Positions 2,849 to 58,720 of a stretch of DNA of 64,000 nucleotides are shown here, in pieces. Under the pieces are notes generated by a model. The model was not told the DNA's origin, ran no database searches, and saw only the letters and a list, made by a program, of their open reading frames with translations. The DNA is taken from assembly GCA_009760855.2 (NCBI GenBank), contig WPIO01000002.1, positions 10,674,501 through 10,738,500 of the forward strand, given 5' to 3'. A program made the translations under genes and the position numbers. Each line of letters begins with the position of its first letter. Position 1 is the stretch's first letter. The stretch is from Cristatella mucedo. Its lineage: Eukaryota > Bryozoa > Phylactolaemata > Cristatellidae.

Positions 2849-2852
2849 CAGC

Positions 2853-2992
2853 TTAATTCATTTGTATAGCGCTCTAAGTGAACTTAATCTCTATTCAGGC
2901 GCTTCACATACGCCACGGGGGGGGCTCGAGCCCACGACCTCGGCCAGACCTTGGTCGGGGCACCTTAACCACTGGGTCAAATCAGCTCGGCA
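2853..2992 (-). mobile_element. SINE-B, near full length
   Basis: Read on the minus strand it has a tRNA-like head: an A box resembling 'gacccagtggttaagg' and a B box 'gggctcgagccc'. It then has the 3' domain 'aagcgcctgaatagagatt...agcgctatacaaatgaatt'. The same order is seen at 49013-49154, 57634-57771 and 58349-58513. The 3' domain matches the LINE-A end. Confidence 0.85.
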
Positions 2993-4656: not shown

Positions 4657-5067
4657 TTTGGTTTAGGGTTTAAGGATTTAGGGTCTTAGGGTCTTAGGGT
4701 CTTAGGGTTTTAGGGTTTTAGGGTTTAGGGTTTAGTGTTTAGGGTTTTGGGGTTTAGTGTTTGGGGTTTTAGCGTTTACGGTTTAGGGTTTTAGTGTTTA
4801 TAATTTAGGGTCTAGGGTTTAGTGTTTAGGGTTTGGGGTTTTAGGGTTTCAGGGTTTAGGGTTTAGTGTATAGGGTTTTAGGGTTAACGGTTTAGTGTTT
4901 AGGGTTTTTTATAGTTTAGGGTTTAGGACTTTAGGGTTTAGTGTTTAGGGTTTTAGGGTTTAGTGTCTAGGGTTTTAGCGTTTATGGTTTAGGGTTTTAG
5001 GGTTTAGGTTTTAGGGTTTAAGGTTTAGGGTTTAGAGTATAGGGTTTAGAATTTAGGGTTAAGGGTG
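4657..5067 (+). repeat. Degenerate telomere-like array (TTTAGGG/TTAGGG variants)
   Basis: About 410 bp of imperfect units such as TTTAGGG, TTTTAGGG, TCTTAGGG and TTTAGTG, all G-rich on the plus strand. Unit length varies between 6 and 8, so this is not a clean animal TTAGGG array. It abuts the 3' end of the truncated Tigger element, separated only by a C/G-block segment (4578-4656). It could be an interstitial telomeric relic or an unrelated minisatellite. Confidence 0.8.
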
Positions 5068-9075: not shown

Positions 9076-9507
9076 TTTGAAGATAACACCCGCGAGAAGA
9101 CAACTATATCTCAAAAATTATCCAAAACCTTTGCTCCTTAGCAAAATCGGTTACCCCACGCGCACTGATGTATTAAAAAATAAGACCTGACAAATCGATA
9201 TTCCCGTTCACACAATTGCTTTAAGGTTGAAATTCCCGTTCATTTTTCTACACCACAAAGGGACGTCGTCGCGTTTGAGAGAACAGCTCATTTGATTTGG
9301 CAGAGAAGGAAATAGAAAATTTCGCTCTCAAGATTTTTCCGAGGCCACTCTTCCACCGTCATCCCCTAACTGCAGTACGCTAGCATTTAATGGTGCTTAT
9401 CAGTTGTTCGCTCTGGAAGCTAACAAAATAAGGCTGGCACTATTATGTATATCATCTATTTCACGGGCCGGAGATGAGATTATATTTAGTAAGTTTTACT
9501 TACCTTT
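9076..9507. other. No feature seen
   Basis: AT-rich unique sequence between LINE fragments. I see no coding signal, RNA gene or repeat. Confidence 0.4.
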
Positions 9508-9925
9508 AATAATAATGATAATATACTTGATAAAGCGCCCTCAGAGAATTCAATCTCTTTCTAGGCGCTTTACATTTGCTGCATGGAAGCATGATTGAAT
9601 GGTTAGTGGTAGCTTGCTCAATATATAACAAGAATAACATGGGGGTGACATGCACAGGGTCAGCATGCAAGTATGGTTAGTGGCAGCATAAGCACATGAA
9701 GGTCGAATCACGGGGACCCACTAAATGCTGCGATAAATAGGTGCGTTTTTAGTTTCTTTTTAAATGTGGTTAAGTCAGGAAATGCCGCGACGCAAGTCGG
9801 GAGTCAGTTCCGGGCTCTGGGAGCCTTTGTCTATAGATTTTGAAATCCATGTGCGTATGTCACCAGTGCATGCAGTAAGGGAGTTTAGTCTTGATTGTAG
9901 AACTCCACAACCAGCCTCTGTGAAC
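9508..9925 (-). mobile_element. LINE-A 3'-end fragment
   Basis: Minus-strand 3' UTR with well-preserved end: (AAT)n, 'ttgataaagcgccctcagag', 'tctttctaggcgctttacat', then 'gacatgcacagggtcagcat' and 'gtcgggagtcagttccgggc'. The similarity to the 40.4-40.7 kb copy is high. Confidence 0.87.
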
Positions 9926-21764: not shown

Positions 21765-21893
21765 TCGGTTAGGGCCAAAGGGTAAAAGAGCCATTAGCTA
21801 CCAGGGTCGTGGGCTCGAGCCCTGCGGCATAAGTAAAGCTCTTGGATAGAGATCGAGCTCTCTCTTGGAGCTATATAAATGAATTATATATAT
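21765..21893 (+). mobile_element. SINE-B
   Basis: B box 'gtgggctcgagccctgcgg', then 'gatagagatcgagctctctc' and 'ggagctatataaatgaatta'. The A-box part ('gttagggccaaagggtaaaa') is degraded. The 3' hairpin with inner AGAGAT/CTCTC is retained. Confidence 0.75.
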
Positions 21894-22018
21894 AGAGGTG
21901 TGTGAGCTATCGCGGGCGTGTGTGCATAGTTTGAGCGGCTCGCCTACCGATTGACTGAGTAAATGCACTAGACTGCACGACAAGGGGATTTCAGAGGCAT
22001 GCTGGAAGGAATATGGAT

Positions 22019-24744: not shown

Positions 24745-27115
24745 GCTGACATGTCTAGTACCCTTAGAGAACTAAATCTCTTTCCAGACACTTCGCAGAG
24801 GCTGTAAAGAAGCATGCAAATTTGCTCAGTGACAAAAAGCAGAGTTATCAACAAACATTAACACATAATTCGCAAGTACCCAGCAAATCTATGAGCAACA
24901 GTTGGGCTATTATCCTTTATATATCGTCAAGTCAGATTATGTGAGACGTCAGTTCCAGGCTTCGGGAGTATACAAAATAAAGGCATGGACTCCAAAGGAT
25001 TTGAGGTTGGTTAGAGGCACAGGCACAGCAAAATGACTTTTGGGGGAGATACATCTCAATCATAGAAGACAACAAGTCCTCTGGACCCTATTCCCACTGT
25101 CCTGCTCCTACGTTGCATTGATCTGCTGCTGCCATGCATAACTAACATCATTAATATGTCATTAGCCTCAGCTCATGTCCCAGCACCTTTCAAAAAAAAA
25201 GCTGTTGTCAGGCCACTTCTCAAGAAAGCGACACAAGACCAAGAGAACTTAAGCAACTACCGCCCAGTCTCCCTTCTACCATTCCTATCAAAGACACTGG
25301 AATGGGTCGTGGCAGACCAGCCAAACTCATATATCGAAACCTCACACCTTGCTAGTAAGTTTCAATCTGGCTTTAGAGCTAATCAATCCACAGAGTCAGC
25401 ATTGCTTCGGGTATACAACGACCTACTTAGGAATGCAGACATGGGTAGTGTCTCTGCTTGTTTTGCTCGATCTTTCGGCAGCTTGTGATACCATCGATCA
25501 CAAAGTTCTTCTAGAGCGCCTCTCATCTCGCCTGGGCATCACTGGCACTGCTCTGCAGTGGTTCAGATCCTATCTCAGTGGCAGACTCCTGAGTATTGAC
25601 GTGAATGGACAAAGATCATCCGAAAGTACCTCTGAAATATGGGGTACCTCAGGGCTCAGTGCTAGGTCCGGTTCTTTTCACGGTATATACTCTCCCTCTT
25701 GCTGATGTGATTGCCAAGCACAATGTAGGCTTTCACTTCTATGCGGATGACACTCAGTTGTACCTTTGCTTTGATCCCTCCCAGCCTTCGAGCACCTCAA
25801 ATTCTCTAAACTCACTAGCTGCATGCATTGATGATATCCGCACATGGATGGCAGCAAATTTTCTAAAACTAAACGATGATAAAACTAACCTACTAGTTAT
25901 GGGCAAACCCAGTGTGATCCAGAGATTGGAAAGGCTGATGCTCAAAATTGGCTCTGCCAGCATATCTCCAGTTGAATCAGCTCGAAATCTAGGTGTCATA
26001 TTCCAAAGCGACCTCTCGTTAGACGACGATGTCAGCTCCACAGTCAAATCTGCCTATTTTCAGATTCATAACATTGCTAAAATTCGGGCTTGTTTAGATA
26101 AGGATACCACATCTAAGTTGGTCCATGCATTCGTGACATCCCGTCTCGACTTCTGCAACTCACTGCTTACTGGCCTACCAGCATGTGCGATCAGGCGATT
26201 GCAGCTGGTCCAAAACTCTGCAGCTAGGCTTGTCTGTCGTGAGCATCGCAATTGCCACATTACTCCACTTCTCGCCGACCTGCACTGGCTACCAGTCAAG
26301 CAATGGATTGACTTCAAGGTTTTGTCGCTCTCTTTTAGGTCCCTTCATTCTATGGCTCCAGCCTATCTCTCAGATATATAACCCCATCAGGCCAAGCATA
26401 GTACCACATGCTTTTCGGAATCCAACAGTCTACAAATACCTCGTTCAAACCTTAAATCCTTTGGAGACCGTGCATTTAGTTCATATGCACCCAAAGCCTG
26501 GAACTCTCTCCCGACTTGCGTCAGAACATCCCTTGACCTGACCACATTTAAAAGGAACTTAAAACACCTATTTAGGACAGCATTTACTGGGTCCCTGTGA
26601 TTCGTCCTTGATGTGCTTATTCGTGCTGTCACTGTGCATGCTGCCACTAACCACATTTGCATGCTGACCCTGTGCATGTCACCCCTAACCATATTATTCA
26701 TTTCGTTTGTTTTTCAAGCATGATTTTACTTACCATTCAATTGCATTTCCCTTTGCAGCAAATGTAAAGCGCCTAGAAAGAGATTAAGTTCTCTGGGGGG
26801 GGGCGCTTTATCAAGTGCATTATTATTATTATTATTATTATTATACACTGCCTAGCTTGATGTGGATGTAGTTCGGATAGGTAGGCTAGAGCAGAGCAGG
26901 ACACTGAAGGGACATCAATGTGAGCGACGACACCTTGATATACATGTGCTGCTTAATGAAGAGTCAGTGCAGGTTAGTGATAGGTAGTGTAATGTGGCAA
27001 CTGCAAAGCTCATGGCAGTCAAGCCTGGCTGAAGAATTTTGCACCAACTGTAGGCACCTTATTATATAGCCAGGAATACTTGCTAGTAGTGAGCAACAGA
27101 AGTAGAGACGAGATG
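24745..27115 (-). mobile_element. Old LINE-A copy interrupted by a younger LINE-A
   Basis: Left part 24745-25048 has the terminal hairpin relic ('tagagaactaaatctctttc' in part) and 3' UTR. Right part 26845-27115 continues the same minus-strand element inward ('gacaccttgatatacatgtg', 'gcagtcaagcctggctgaag'). The gap is a plus-strand LINE-A insertion with possible 4-bp duplication ATAC at both edges (25049-25052 and 26841-26844). Confidence 0.78.
25053..26840 (+). mobile_element. LINE-A, 5'-truncated, RT frameshifted
   Basis: The coding part lies in three overlapping frames (25156-25488, 25349-25705, 25605-26381), so there are at least two frameshifts. RT blocks: 'YRPVSLLPFLSKTLE', 'FQSGFRANQSTESALLRV', 'LLDLSAACDTIDHKVLLERL' (motif A, Phe to Cys before Asp), '[20 protein letters not shown]', '[12 protein letters not shown]' (motif C intact), '[17 protein letters not shown]' and '[19 protein letters not shown]'. 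The 3' UTR ends with outer stem AAAGCGCC (26767-26774) / GGCGCTTT (26803-26810), inner stem AGAGA/TCTCT and a (TTA)n tail. No endonuclease domain is present. By its motifs it belongs to the L2/CR1 assemblage. Confidence 0.93.
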
Positions 27116-39792: not shown

Positions 39793-40224
39793 ATGTGCAG
39801 TGCATCAATGCAGGTTTAAAGCTCCTGAAATTTCTAGAGCGAACGTTTCATCATCGCGGGAATGCAAAATTACACTGCAGCTATCCTTATGCTTGCTTGT
39901 TGATTAAGCTTGCTGTTATTTTGCAGGCTCGCTCTGCTTCATCGTTACCAAAAATCTCCGTCCAATCGCACCGGCTTGCCAAGAAACGAACAGATGAGTA
40001 GCTAGGACTAGATGATCTGGAGCCAGAATTCCGGGGGGGGGAGATGGGTGGTTGGTTGGCTCGTCTCCAGAGAGCGACGCGAGCCTGGCCGTGACCGGCA
40101 GATCGTCTCCCGTGGAGTGAGCATCCCTCCGGAGACTTCAGCGCTTCATAATAATAATATAATAATAATTCACTTGATAAAGCGCCCTCAGAGAACTTAA
40201 TCTCTCTCTAGGCGCTTTACATTT

Positions 40225-40397
40225 GAGCCATGATGGCACACTAGGTAAGGCGGTTGCTTTCACGACTTCCGTCCCGAGGTCGTGGGTTCGATTCCTGTGG
40301 TGGGCGATTCTTTATCGCCACTGCAAGCGGTGGTGATAGCCGTAAAGGCTCTTCTGTCGCTATACAAAAAGAGGCTGTTTAATCAGCTAGGATTTTT
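40225..40397 (+). mobile_element. SINE-A nested in LINE-A 3' UTR
   Basis: Best-preserved SINE-A. Head 'gagccatgatggcacactag', A box TGGCACACTAGG, B box GGTTCGATTCC, body 'ctttatcgccactgcaagcg', tail 'ctatacaaaaagaggctgtt', 'taatcagctagga' plus T run. It is bounded by a 9-bp direct repeat TTTACATTT (40216-40224 and 40398-40406), the LINE-A sequence at the insertion point. It therefore entered after this LINE-A copy. Confidence 0.95.
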
Positions 40398-40735
40398 TTT
40401 ACATTTGCTGCAAAGTGAAATGCAATTGAATGGTAAGTAAAATCATGCTTGAAAAACAAACGAAATGAATAATATGGTTAGGGGTGACATGCACAGGGTC
40501 AGCATGCAAATGTGGTTAGTGGCAGCATGCACAGTGTCAGCACGCAAAAGCACATCAAGGACGAATCACAGGGACCCACTAAATGCTGTCCTAAATAGGT
40601 GTGTTTTTAGGTTCCTTTTAAATGTGGTCAGGTCAGGGGATGTTCTGACGCAGGTCGGGAGGGAGTTCCAGGCTTTGGGAGCATATGAACTAAATGCACG
40701 GTTTCCAAAGGATTTAAGGTTTGTATGAGGTATTT

Positions 40736-48581: not shown

Positions 48582-48785
48582 GCCTATAATAATAATAATA
48601 CACTTGATAAAGCACCCTCAGAGAACTCAATCTCTTTCTAGGCACTTTAATTTACTGCAAGGAAACACCATCGAATGGGGAGTGGAAATATCATGCTTGA
48701 TAAACAACATGAATAACATGGTTAGGGGTGACATGCACAGGGTCAGCATGCAAATGTGGTTAGTGGCAGCATGCAATGTTGCATA
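48582..48785 (-). mobile_element. LINE-A 3'-end fragment
   Basis: (AAT)n, 'cacttgataaagcaccctca', 'tctttctaggcactttaatt', then 'ggttaggggtgacatgcaca' and 'gggtcagcatgcaaatgtgg'. Close to the 40 kb copy. The outer stem now reads AAAGCACC/GGCACTTT, where the second-strand change may be a compensatory pair (C-G to T-A). Confidence 0.88.
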
Positions 48786-48867: not shown

Positions 48868-49345
48868 TTTTAATGTATCACCAGCTATACCCAAAAATTC
48901 ATAATGACTCTATTGGGTGTTTTTACAGGAGAGTTTTCTATATCGAATTCAAAGCCTAAGCAGCTGTCGGTACGCATGCCATAGCCAACAGCTTTCATCT
49001 CACGCAACAAGAAAAATATAACTCATTTTTATAGCACCCCAAGAGAACTTAATCTCAATTCAGGCGCTTCACATATGCCTCAAGGCTCGAGCACACGACC
49101 TCAGCCAGACCTTGGTCGGGGACGAGCACCTTAACCTGCTGGACCAAACCAGCTCAAGAGAAAGTGAGAAGAGTAGCTGAATTCGGAGTGTAGGCGAGGT
49201 GGTAGTTGTGAGTAGCATTGAAGTAGCTGCTCAGGACGGCTGGATAGGTTGTGCCACTGTCGGCAGCAGTAAAGTAGTTACCAGTGCTTAAGAATTGTAG
49301 AAGTGAGTTCTACAGTCTAGGATCTGTAGATTACTACCAGTGGCT
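48868..49345 (-). mobile_element. LINE-B 3' UTR, interrupted by SINE-B
   Basis: Minus-strand LINE-B end: 'gtgtttttacaggagagttt', 'gtacgcatgccatagccaac', 'ctcacgcaacaa', then after the SINE 'agagaaagtgagaagagtag', 'gtgagtagcattgaagtagc', 'agtaaagtagttaccagtgc'. Normal, uninverted orientation. Confidence 0.85.
49013..49154 (-). mobile_element. SINE-B nested in LINE-B
   Basis: On the minus strand: 'gagctggtttggtccagcag', 'gttaaggtgctcg', B box region 'cgtgtgctcgagccttgagg', 3' domain 'gaagcgcctgaattgagatt', 'aagttctcttggggtgctat'. It is bounded by a 5-bp direct repeat CAAGA (49008-49012 and 49155-49159), matching the uninterrupted LINE-B sequence 'caacaaagagaaag' at that point. Confidence 0.9.
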
Positions 49346-56650: not shown

Positions 56651-57633
56651 CTAGAAATAGATAAGCGATCCATGGCTGAGGCTTGTTATTTGCAAGTGTC
56701 TGATATGCTTGCTCAGCCGATCCCCACATGATGGGTGGGATTCACTGGTAAGCATCGGCAAGTCAGGATTGTTCTGCTTTGTTCTGTAGCCACTCGGCCC
56801 TTTGCTAGGGAAACTGCCACCGGCTCTCATATCACCCCATCGTAGCAACCTTAGCACTGATAAACGGGTTTGTCAGCAGTGGCAGCTGCATCGTCCTATG
56901 CCTGTCGCTGCCGTCGCAGCTCTGTCACATGGCATGTGCAATTATGCTAGACATGCTAGACTGCATCCATTAGCCGCCTGCCTCAGATATTGGCACGCTT
57001 ATCTTACAGTGCACCGGTTAGAATCCCACTCTCTCGGGATATGAGCTGGTACCACTGGCTTGCACCAGTTGTCTGCCTTTTGTGAGAACAGTTAAGTTTC
57101 GCTCCCATGTGACAAGCATTGCATGCCCTCAGCTTACTTGCAATGCAATGCACCAGCGTGTCTACTACTGAAAAGGCAGCCGGTGCCATTCCGCTCGTGG
57201 TCCAAGCCCACTCTTGATTCAAGCATGCTTCTGCTGGCTATGGACTTGTGGGCTTGGGTCAGTTATCGACAGTACAGAACGAACAACTACGACCTGGTGA
57301 GAGCCGTGATTTATGGCTGTGTCCTACCAATGCGAATGGGCTTATCTCCTCTGTATCAGAGACAATTATCAGAAGACAGTTACTAGATCCGGCTACCAGC
57401 ACCGGGCAGGCTTTAGAAACTCAAATCTGTTTTGAGTTCCTTTGCTAACTTGACAGCCAATGCTCCATATGTATTTATGGTGCCTTGCATACTGTACCTT
57501 GCATAGAGCACAGTTGCCATCCAGGAGCCTCCCGGCAATGGCTTGTGGCCTGTGCACTCCGACCGAGGTCAGGCAATTGAAAATACTAATGAGACATTTG
57601 TTTGGTGACCTAGAATAACTAAATCGCTGCCAA
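56651..57633. other. Intronic sequence without recognised features
   Basis: No repeat or exon recognised. Short frames on both strands are unsupported. Confidence 0.4.
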
Positions 57634-57771
57634 GCTGGTTTGGTCCAGTGGTTAAGGTGCTTGCACCGACCAGGTTCTGGTTGAGGTCGTGGGCTCGAGC
57701 CCCGAGGCACATGTGAAGCGCCTGAATAGAGATTAAGTTCTCTTAGGGTGCTATACAATGAATTATATATA
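57634..57771 (+). mobile_element. SINE-B, reference copy
   Basis: Head 'gctggtttggtccagtggtt', 'aaggtgcttgcacc' (A box TGGTCCAGTGG); B box 'gtgggctcgagccccgagg'; 3' domain 'gaagcgcctgaatagagatt', 'aagttctcttagggtgctat', 'acaatgaattatatat'. The inner hairpin AGAGATTAAGTTCTCT (57728-57743) is identical to LINE-A. The outer arms AGCGCC/GGTGCT pair with one G-U. Confidence 0.93.
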
Positions 57772-58720
57772 CGTATGCTGGCAAGGAAGCATGTCAAATT
57801 GGTTAGTTATAGCAAGCACAGAGGGTCAGCGTGCATAAGCCCACAAAGACAATTCACACGGACCGAGCAAATGCTGTCCAGAACCGGTGGGCTTTTACCT
57901 TCTCTATATGTCATGGGGATCTCATTACATCAATGGTTAGTTAGTTCCATGCTTTGGGAGCATGCGAACTGAAAACAATGTATCCAAAGAATTTGAGGTA
58001 GGTTGATCGAGGTACAGCTGAGTGACTTAGAAGAATCTGTGGGTCTATGTAGGCCATAGCAAGAGAATGAGGGAACCTAACAGTGGGTGACAGAATTTAA
58101 AGTCGACATGCTGCTTGATGGGGAACCAGTTCAGATTGGTGAGTAATGTGGCAGTTTCGATGGACACTTCAGGCAAGCCTAACTGCAGATTTTCGGGTAA
58201 ACTCTAAGCATTTTATTGCACAGGCATGAAGATCTGTGAGTATTGAGTTGCAGAAGTCTAGACAGGATGCCACAAATGTGTGGACCAGCTTGGTAATGGC
58301 ATCCTTATCTAAGAAGGTGGGCATTTGCAATTGTGCATAGCTGAAAGTGCCGCTCTGGTTTGGCGCAACGGTTAAGGTGCTTCAATCGATCAAGGTCAAG
58401 GTGAATGTATTTGATGACTGAGGTCGCTGACTTGAGCCCCGTGATATATTTGAAGTGCCCGAATAAAGATCAAGTTCTCCCAGGGTTCTATACAAAGGAA
58501 TTATATTTATTTCTATAGGCAGGCTTGACTGTAAAGTTGACGTTGTGATCATCTAGTGAAAGGTCGTTGTGGAACAGGACAGCCCTGATTTCTGTCAGCT
58601 GGCCTGATTTGATGTGGTGGTTGATTAAGCGAGCAGGTCCCATGAATAGCCGTGATTTACTGCGATCATCTGTAACAACTTTGAGAAGCTCACATACCGT
58701 ATTATGCAGCACAGTGTCTA
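57772..58720 (-). mobile_element. Old LINE-A copy interrupted by SINE-B
   Basis: Minus strand: 'acggaccgagcaaatgctgt', 'gttccatgctttgggagcat', 'aaagtcgacatgctgcttga', 'caggcaagcctaactgcaga', 'gcatccttatctaagaaggt'. After the SINE it continues with 'ggcaggcttgactgtaaagt' and 'tcatctagtgaaaggtcgtt'. The coding capacity is gone. Confidence 0.82.
58349..58513 (+). mobile_element. SINE-B nested in old LINE-A
   Basis: Head 'gctctggtttggcgcaacgg', 'ttaaggtgcttc'; an internal expansion near 58390-58420; B box damaged ('tgacttgagccccgtg'); 3' domain 'gaagtgcccgaataaagatc', 'aagttctcccagggttctat'. The surrounding LINE-A sequence resumes directly after it. The target duplication is not clear. Confidence 0.82.

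Follow-up and report, generated by a model that had tools for sequence, protein, structure and literature searches.

Partnerships in which a SINE carries the 3' end of a LINE are a well-known strategy: the available part of PMC3747384 lists 58 SINEs whose 3' end is common to a partner LINE, many of these LINEs being of the L2 or CR1 type, with the mosquito Gecko and an I element as the sole protostome pair in its Table 1 (2013), and, according to the available part of PMC10294476, three of the eight families of bivalve SINEs have a known LINE donor. The closest described systems are the stringent L2-clade elements UnaL2 (eel) and ZfL2-1 and ZfL2-2 (zebrafish), which, like the element that we call LINE-A, combine a protein containing an endonuclease (EN) and a reverse transcriptase (RT) with a 3' stem-loop. 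UnaSINE1/2 share the tail of UnaL2 (Table 1 of PMC3747384, in its available part), as SINE-B shares that of LINE-A. In MIR/L2, SINE2-8_SP/L2-1_SP and Nve-Nin-DC-SINE-1/L2-22_NV, compared here by their description in the same part of that paper, a tRNA-type promoter is joined to the tail of an L2/CR1-type LINE, and the tail of SINE-B, like those of MIR and of other SINEs in Table 1, appears to come from a LINE of this type. For zebrafish L2, the available text of PMC4176376 reports that a region between EN and RT binds the tail stem-loop, that the basic residues K379, R383, R387 and K390 of ZfL2-1 are required for this binding, that residues adjoining the basic ones confer specificity for the loop, and that a W-to-A change at the W389 place abolished binding by ZfL2-2. 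The loops of UnaL2 and ZfL2 are said in that text to be family-specific, and the likeness to LINE-A excludes the loop letters.

We analyzed a 64-kb stretch of the Cristatella mucedo genome (572 Mb), referred to as a whole as the window, in which SINE-B and LINE-A have the same 3'-terminal hairpin (Table 1). The earlier note placed both hairpins correctly to within a base (SINE-B exactly; the left arm of LINE-A begins at 26766, not 26767), and the arms, inner stem and loop that it described are present, although the pairing extends further, to about 60 nt in three helices. Among the additional SINE-B copies that it named, those at 2.9 and 49.1 kb are as claimed, whereas the one at 21.8 kb exists but is old and diverged. 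The LINE-A tail of the window has a run of nine Gs where most other copies have GAGGG.

Table 1. Annotated elements in the 64-kb window
Feature	Position	Strand	Remarks
SINE-B copy	57629..57765	+	box A/B head 57629-57706, LINE-type 3' tail 57707-57765; approximate ends
SINE-B apical hairpin AGAGA/UUAAGU/UCUCU	57728..57743	+	
SINE-B middle stem arms	AAGCGCC 57716-57722, GGTGCT 57747-57752	+	
LINE-A copy, truncated, frame-broken	25066..26844	+	RT frames, 3' UTR, (ATT)n end; approximate left end
LINE-A 3' tail	26757..26819	+	hairpin 26779-26794
LINE-A middle stem arms	AAAGCGCC 26766-26773, GGCGCTTT 26802-26809	+	
LINE-A RT frame P0001, 579 aa	40736..42475	-	PF00078, E 6e-27
Exact hairpin of the minus-strand LINE-A copy with the 579-aa frame	40190..40205	-	SINE-C insertion separates hairpin from 3' UTR
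SINE-C, second box-B-bearing SINE, inside LINE-A tail	40226..40397	+	by eye
SINE-B copy	2850..2990	-	hairpin 2877-2892; approximate ends
SINE-B copy	49020..49157	-	hairpin 49042-49057; approximate ends
SINE-B-like copy, old, diverged	21770..21900	+	hairpin AGAGATCGAGCTCTCT at 21848; approximate ends
SINE-B-like copy, old, longer head	58360..58510	+	hairpin at 58465; approximate ends
LINE-A 3' end, loop UUGAAU	9500..9600	-	hairpin 9543-9558
LINE-A 3' end, loop UUGAGU	48590..48680	-	hairpin 48620-48635

The relationship between the two families extends well beyond the hairpin. Their consensus tails, derived from sampled copies rather than the whole genome (and, for LINE-A, from copies selected by their 3' end), are identical at 51 of 62 positions and at all 16 positions of the hairpin; on these samples, therefore, the idea that the two 3' ends do not align can be set aside. 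The tail of about 60 nt is predicted to fold, in LINE-A and SINE-B alike, into a long rod of basal, middle and apical helices, with AGCGCCU/GGGCGCU as the middle helix, AGAGA/UCUCU as the apical helix and UUAAGU as the loop. Fold scores are strong for both consensuses (z of -5.71 for LINE-A and -5.34 for SINE-B) and weaker for the window copy (-3.98) and for a SINE copy whose apical stem is mismatched (-3.12).

We then asked how often the hairpin follows the body of each element when the tail itself is kept out of the query. A LINE query consisting of the 3' UTR up to the start of the tail gave 34 matches, reduced to 25 by removing five with tail letters the same as those of another match, two cut by a locus end and two that stop short of the 3' end; a recognizable hairpin (judged by eye) lies downstream in 23 of these 25, the exceptions being L014, in which the apical stem is degraded, and a copy whose tail is split by an insertion. 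The corresponding SINE head query gave 46 matches, of which ten were removed (eight with identical tails, two cut), and the hairpin, again by eye, lies downstream of the head in all 36 distinct tails. As to the loci themselves, L001-L008 were selected by the hairpin, and the SINE query that yielded the matched parts of L009-L038 included the tail, so that the sample free of such selection consists of the window, the flanks and six 10-kb stretches.

Genome-wide, the 16-nt hairpin AGAGATTAAGTTCTCT has 27,242 exact matches (13,527 + 13,715), and its reversed sequence, used as a control, has none across the 572 Mb. Within the window it occurs 12 times at two or fewer mismatches; 100 shuffles gave 0.05 occurrences on average. 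Exact 33-nt flanks place 12,307 copies in a LINE-type context (CCTAGARAGAGATT...GAGGGYRCTT) and 3,475 in a SINE-type context (CCTGAAT...TRGGGYRCTA), class counts that cover 15,782 of the exact hairpins, the other 11,460 being without exact flanks. A sample comprising the window, 38 loci and six 10-kb stretches set by round coordinates alone contains 73 distinct matches at three or fewer mismatches (38 SINE, 29 LINE and 6 fitting neither class); the six stretches by themselves contribute seven LINE matches, no SINE match and one of neither class.

The covariation test proposed in the earlier note gave a weak result, marginal for the LINE pairs and nothing beyond shuffles for the SINE pairs. In an alignment of 24 LINE tails (excluding the insertion-split copy), 92.6% of cells are paired, a value reached by 9 of 500 shuffles, but the covariation score is equalled by 26 and the number of both-side changes by 63 of the 500, and a control slid by -2 comes near the real covariation score (0.086 versus 0.091). 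In the 36 SINE tails 95.2% of cells are paired, with 381, 412 and 393 of 500 shuffles reaching the covariation score, the paired cells and the both-side changes, respectively. Slid controls pair far less in both families (at most 62.7% for LINE and 59.5% for SINE). In the middle stem, the C-G/U-A pair was counted by eye in the first 100 copies among the matches listed for each family, and Fisher's test gives p = 0.25 (LINE), 0.05 (SINE) and 0.03 (pooled). Because copies mutate after insertion, they allow only a low-powered test of this kind; compensatory change was not obtained as proof of the stem, and the modeled stem draws its support from predicted fold energy and the shared tail.

Stop-to-stop frames of 1068 codons are present in all four LINE-A copies examined (five are listed with that length), and the same four copies have 178 nt between stop and hairpin and an (ATT)n end; in the one copy compared with Pfam, PF03372 (endonuclease) and PF00078 (RT) lie in a single open frame. 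A search for relatives of the 579-aa RT frame of the window gave 145,770 first-look candidates, of which 75 were scored, the 74 other than the frame itself being 91-94% identical to it. That the frames are open and alike suggests recent LINE-A activity. The region between EN and RT reads LWFTTDIKLAKSTKRKLEKAYKRSG, anchored by eye on W370 of ZfL2-1; with the cTBR residues placed by eye from published spacing rather than by alignment, LINE-A is basic at K376, K379, R383, K387, K390 and R391 (ZfL2-1 numbering) and retains E386, so that all four required places are basic, as in UnaL2 and ZfL2. LINE-A differs from ZfL2 at two conserved cTBR residues, P369 being L and W389 being Y. The latter counts against tail binding by LINE-A, because W-to-A at this place abolished binding in ZfL2-2, although Y is aromatic, like W. 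We thus regard the region as a potential, putative tail-binding region and, from this region and by eye, infer that LINE-A is an L2-clade LINE.

The SINE-B consensus is 131 nt counted from AGCTGG, and its head adjoins the tail directly, a central domain not being apparent by eye. Within the head, TGGTCCAGCGG and GGCTCGAGCCC are what we take, by eye and against box A and box B consensuses, to be a box A-like signal (11 of 11 places) and a box B-like signal (9 of 11). The description of SINE-B as tRNA-headed draws on these signals and does not extend to recognition of the head as a tRNA: one copy compared with Rfam at E 10 matched no tRNA family, ARAGORN found no tRNA in the window, and comparison with 20 tRNAs of the genome gave a best z of 3.7 with several amino acids close together and no clear winner. 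No source tRNA could be named by these comparisons. Contig C3 carries 11 of the 60 tRNA matches listed, along about 1.3 Mb of that one contig, and may represent a contaminant or the genome of a bacterial symbiont.

Several properties of SINE-B count against the pairing or are variable. The 3' repeats differ, (ATT)n in LINE-A versus TTATAT/(TA)n in SINE-B. A common 3' repeat occurs in some pairs and is not used here to define one; for TS SINE, the available part of PMC3747384 gives one example of a 3' repeat common to SINE and LINE. Target-site duplications of at least 8 nt flank 3 of 38 SINE-B copies (one is 20 nt), against a mean of 0.43 and a highest value of 3 in 200 shuffled pairings, and most copies are without a clear duplication. 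A minor SINE-B set has a different base in the apical stem (196 of 3,671 genome-wide), which also counts against the pairing. Six copies (L010, L011, L023, L028, L029 and L031) have apical AGTGA or AGCGA, five of these end in the manner of GAACTATA, and the mismatch in their stem perhaps marks a minor subfamily; as a major subfamily such copies were rejected, since they number six among the sampled tails but 196 of 3,671 in the genome.

Given the shared tail, the predicted fold, the loop match, the open LINE frames, the basic places in the binding region and the overlap in copy divergence, we consider it highly probable that SINE-B is mobilized in trans by the LINE-A lineage through the shared stem-loop. 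SINE-B would be a non-autonomous retrotransposon transcribed by RNA polymerase III from the box A/B-like signals of its head, its last 60 nt or so having presumably been derived from a LINE-A-lineage element, namely from its 3' end. By analogy with zebrafish L2, the basic region that separates EN from RT would allow the LINE protein to bind the stem-loop in its own RNA, and the protein would nick DNA and prime reverse transcription at that end; SINE-B RNA, in which a GC-rich middle stem carries an identical apical stem and UUAAGU loop, would then be copied in trans. The claim that LINE-A mobilizes SINE-B is thus sustained as to the lineage and softened as to the donor, since older relatives are its equals in this respect, and the subfamily acting on SINE-B RNA may be any of these.

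A credible alternative, to which we give real though lesser weight, is that SINE-B is really partnered by another LINE subfamily of the lineage, unseen or older, rather than by present-day LINE-A, whose hairpin would be alike by common descent only. SINE-B reads GCATATG and has no extra U before CAAATG, where LINE-A has GCAAATG and CTTTATCAAGTG; SINE-B is without both of these, which hints, and does no more than hint, at a departure of its tail from the LINE lineage before they arose. We examined old LINE copies (LINE-A2) found with a 34-place pattern over the 5' half of the tail (130 exact matches, ten loci read). In 8 of the 10 loci the end is of the ACAAA type, like that of SINE-B, in the half untouched by the pattern (by eye), but the pattern itself fixes GYATATG and GTGCC, so that the GCATATG and GTGCC of LINE-A2 were built in, and the end served as a filter for its consensus. 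Sixteen old copies outside the pattern have a GCATATG consensus together with a UUGAGU loop and the extra U. Identity to the SINE-B tail (51 of 62 for LINE-A, 52 for LINE-A2 and 52 for the old copies outside the pattern) fails to separate the candidates; LINE-A2 was accordingly rejected as a clearly closer donor, and by these tail sequences the older relatives of LINE-A appear as good a donor as LINE-A itself. The computed LINE-A2 consensus has one apical pair fewer than a variant one letter removed from it (-18.4 versus -21.1 kcal/mol), and the LINE-A2 tail one letter off the computed consensus has a z of -4.54. The difference between the 3' repeats of SINE-B and LINE-A favors an older or unseen partner, but (ATT)n is the terminal repeat of the old copies too, and copies with such ends are far more diverged, with a median of 35.9% (n = 16, poorly aligned).

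Loop and age bear on the same alternative. The variable loop base is 86 A, 9 T and 5 G in 100 SINE tails, 56 A, 42 G, 1 T and 1 C in 100 LINE tails, and 58 A, 23 G, 12 T and 7 C in 100 LINE-A2 tails, in each case among the matches listed; for G, the SINE and LINE tails differ with p = 3e-10. Median divergence from the family's own consensus, excluding loci that had been selected through the hairpin, a SINE query or frame length and with outliers in every group (misalignment or older subfamilies), is 8.3% for SINE-B (n = 12), 4.5% for LINE-A with loop UUAAGU (n = 7) and 12.4% for LINE-A with loop UUGAGU (n = 11), so that SINE-B overlaps both LINE-A groups in age while its loop is that of the younger. 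SINE-B copies appear older than the UUAAGU copies, which favors an older partner; some of SINE-B may predate the LINE that matches it in loop, and this counts against the pairing. An apparent contemporaneity of SINE-B with UUAAGU LINE-A was discarded, the median of 6.4% behind it having included chosen loci (4.5% without them). The near-uniform UUAAGU of SINE-B, despite flanks like those of older LINEs and an intermediate age, raises the speculative and rather unlikely possibility that SINE-B acquired or kept the loop read by the active LINE protein, tracking the recognition loop of its LINE.

We think it improbable that the tail was captured once and that SINE-B now moves by a relaxed mechanism needing only an AT-rich 3' end. 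The variable AT-rich 3' ends, the scarcity of clear target-site duplications and some apical mismatches speak for such a mechanism, but the main loop base is kept in most of the SINE tails listed and the consensus folds strongly; because selection is not expected to act on individual copies once they have inserted, this would reflect the masters that were copied. The view that chance or base composition produced the hairpin, or that it belongs to unrelated repeats, gains something from the matches of neither class and the hairpins without exact flanks, but the shuffles and the reversed control rule out chance or composition bias as its source and, with a LINE-D 3' end that has no hairpin in three copies, leave this explanation a negligible probability, in agreement with the claim that the hairpin is not simple sequence bias.

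Another L2-like LINE, LINE-D, is also abundant in this genome (5468-6574 and 35626-36075 in the window; loci L049-L051), with frames of up to 1107 codons and 82-86% identity to the window frame in 118 other scored matches. The hairpin is absent from the LINE-D 3' end in three copies, where the end reads ...GGAGTTACTGACGGAGATACAT, and we thus rejected the proposal that the hairpin is universal to the L2-like LINEs of this genome. SINE-C, read by eye, has no such hairpin either and is flanked by a perfect 10-nt duplication, CAAATGTAAA, at 40398-40407 and 40216-40225. Its CGCTATACAAA resembles the LINE-D 3' region (by eye), and LINE-D might for this reason be the SINE-C partner. Elsewhere in the window, at positions 4660-5066, GGTTTAG is repeated about 55 times in an interstitial array that resembles a telomere.

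The mitochondrial contig (C688; loci L085 and L086) is 21,008 bases long and, over 17,000 bases read by eye, carries on one strand the protein genes COX1 and ND3, then ND1, ND6, CYTB, ND4L, ND4 and ND5. We take the block from ND1 to ND5 to be an order common in lophotrochozoans. If this likeness holds, the host would be a protostome. SINE-B and LINE-A would then add a pair to a list with one protostome entry (Table 1, in the available part of PMC3747384). The letters of the tail had no match in the paper texts searched, Repbase and Dfam being outside that search, and the pair is possibly undescribed.

Apart from its loop, SINE-B represents an ordinary and well-understood kind of parasitism. 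For zebrafish L2 elements the choice of the RNA to be copied has been claimed to depend on the loop (PMC4176376, in its available text), and the abundant side-by-side copies in this genome, with two LINE loops versus essentially one SINE loop, provide a natural test of loop specificity. Loop tracking, if true, would be a natural genomic record of a parasite following the recognition loop of its LINE.
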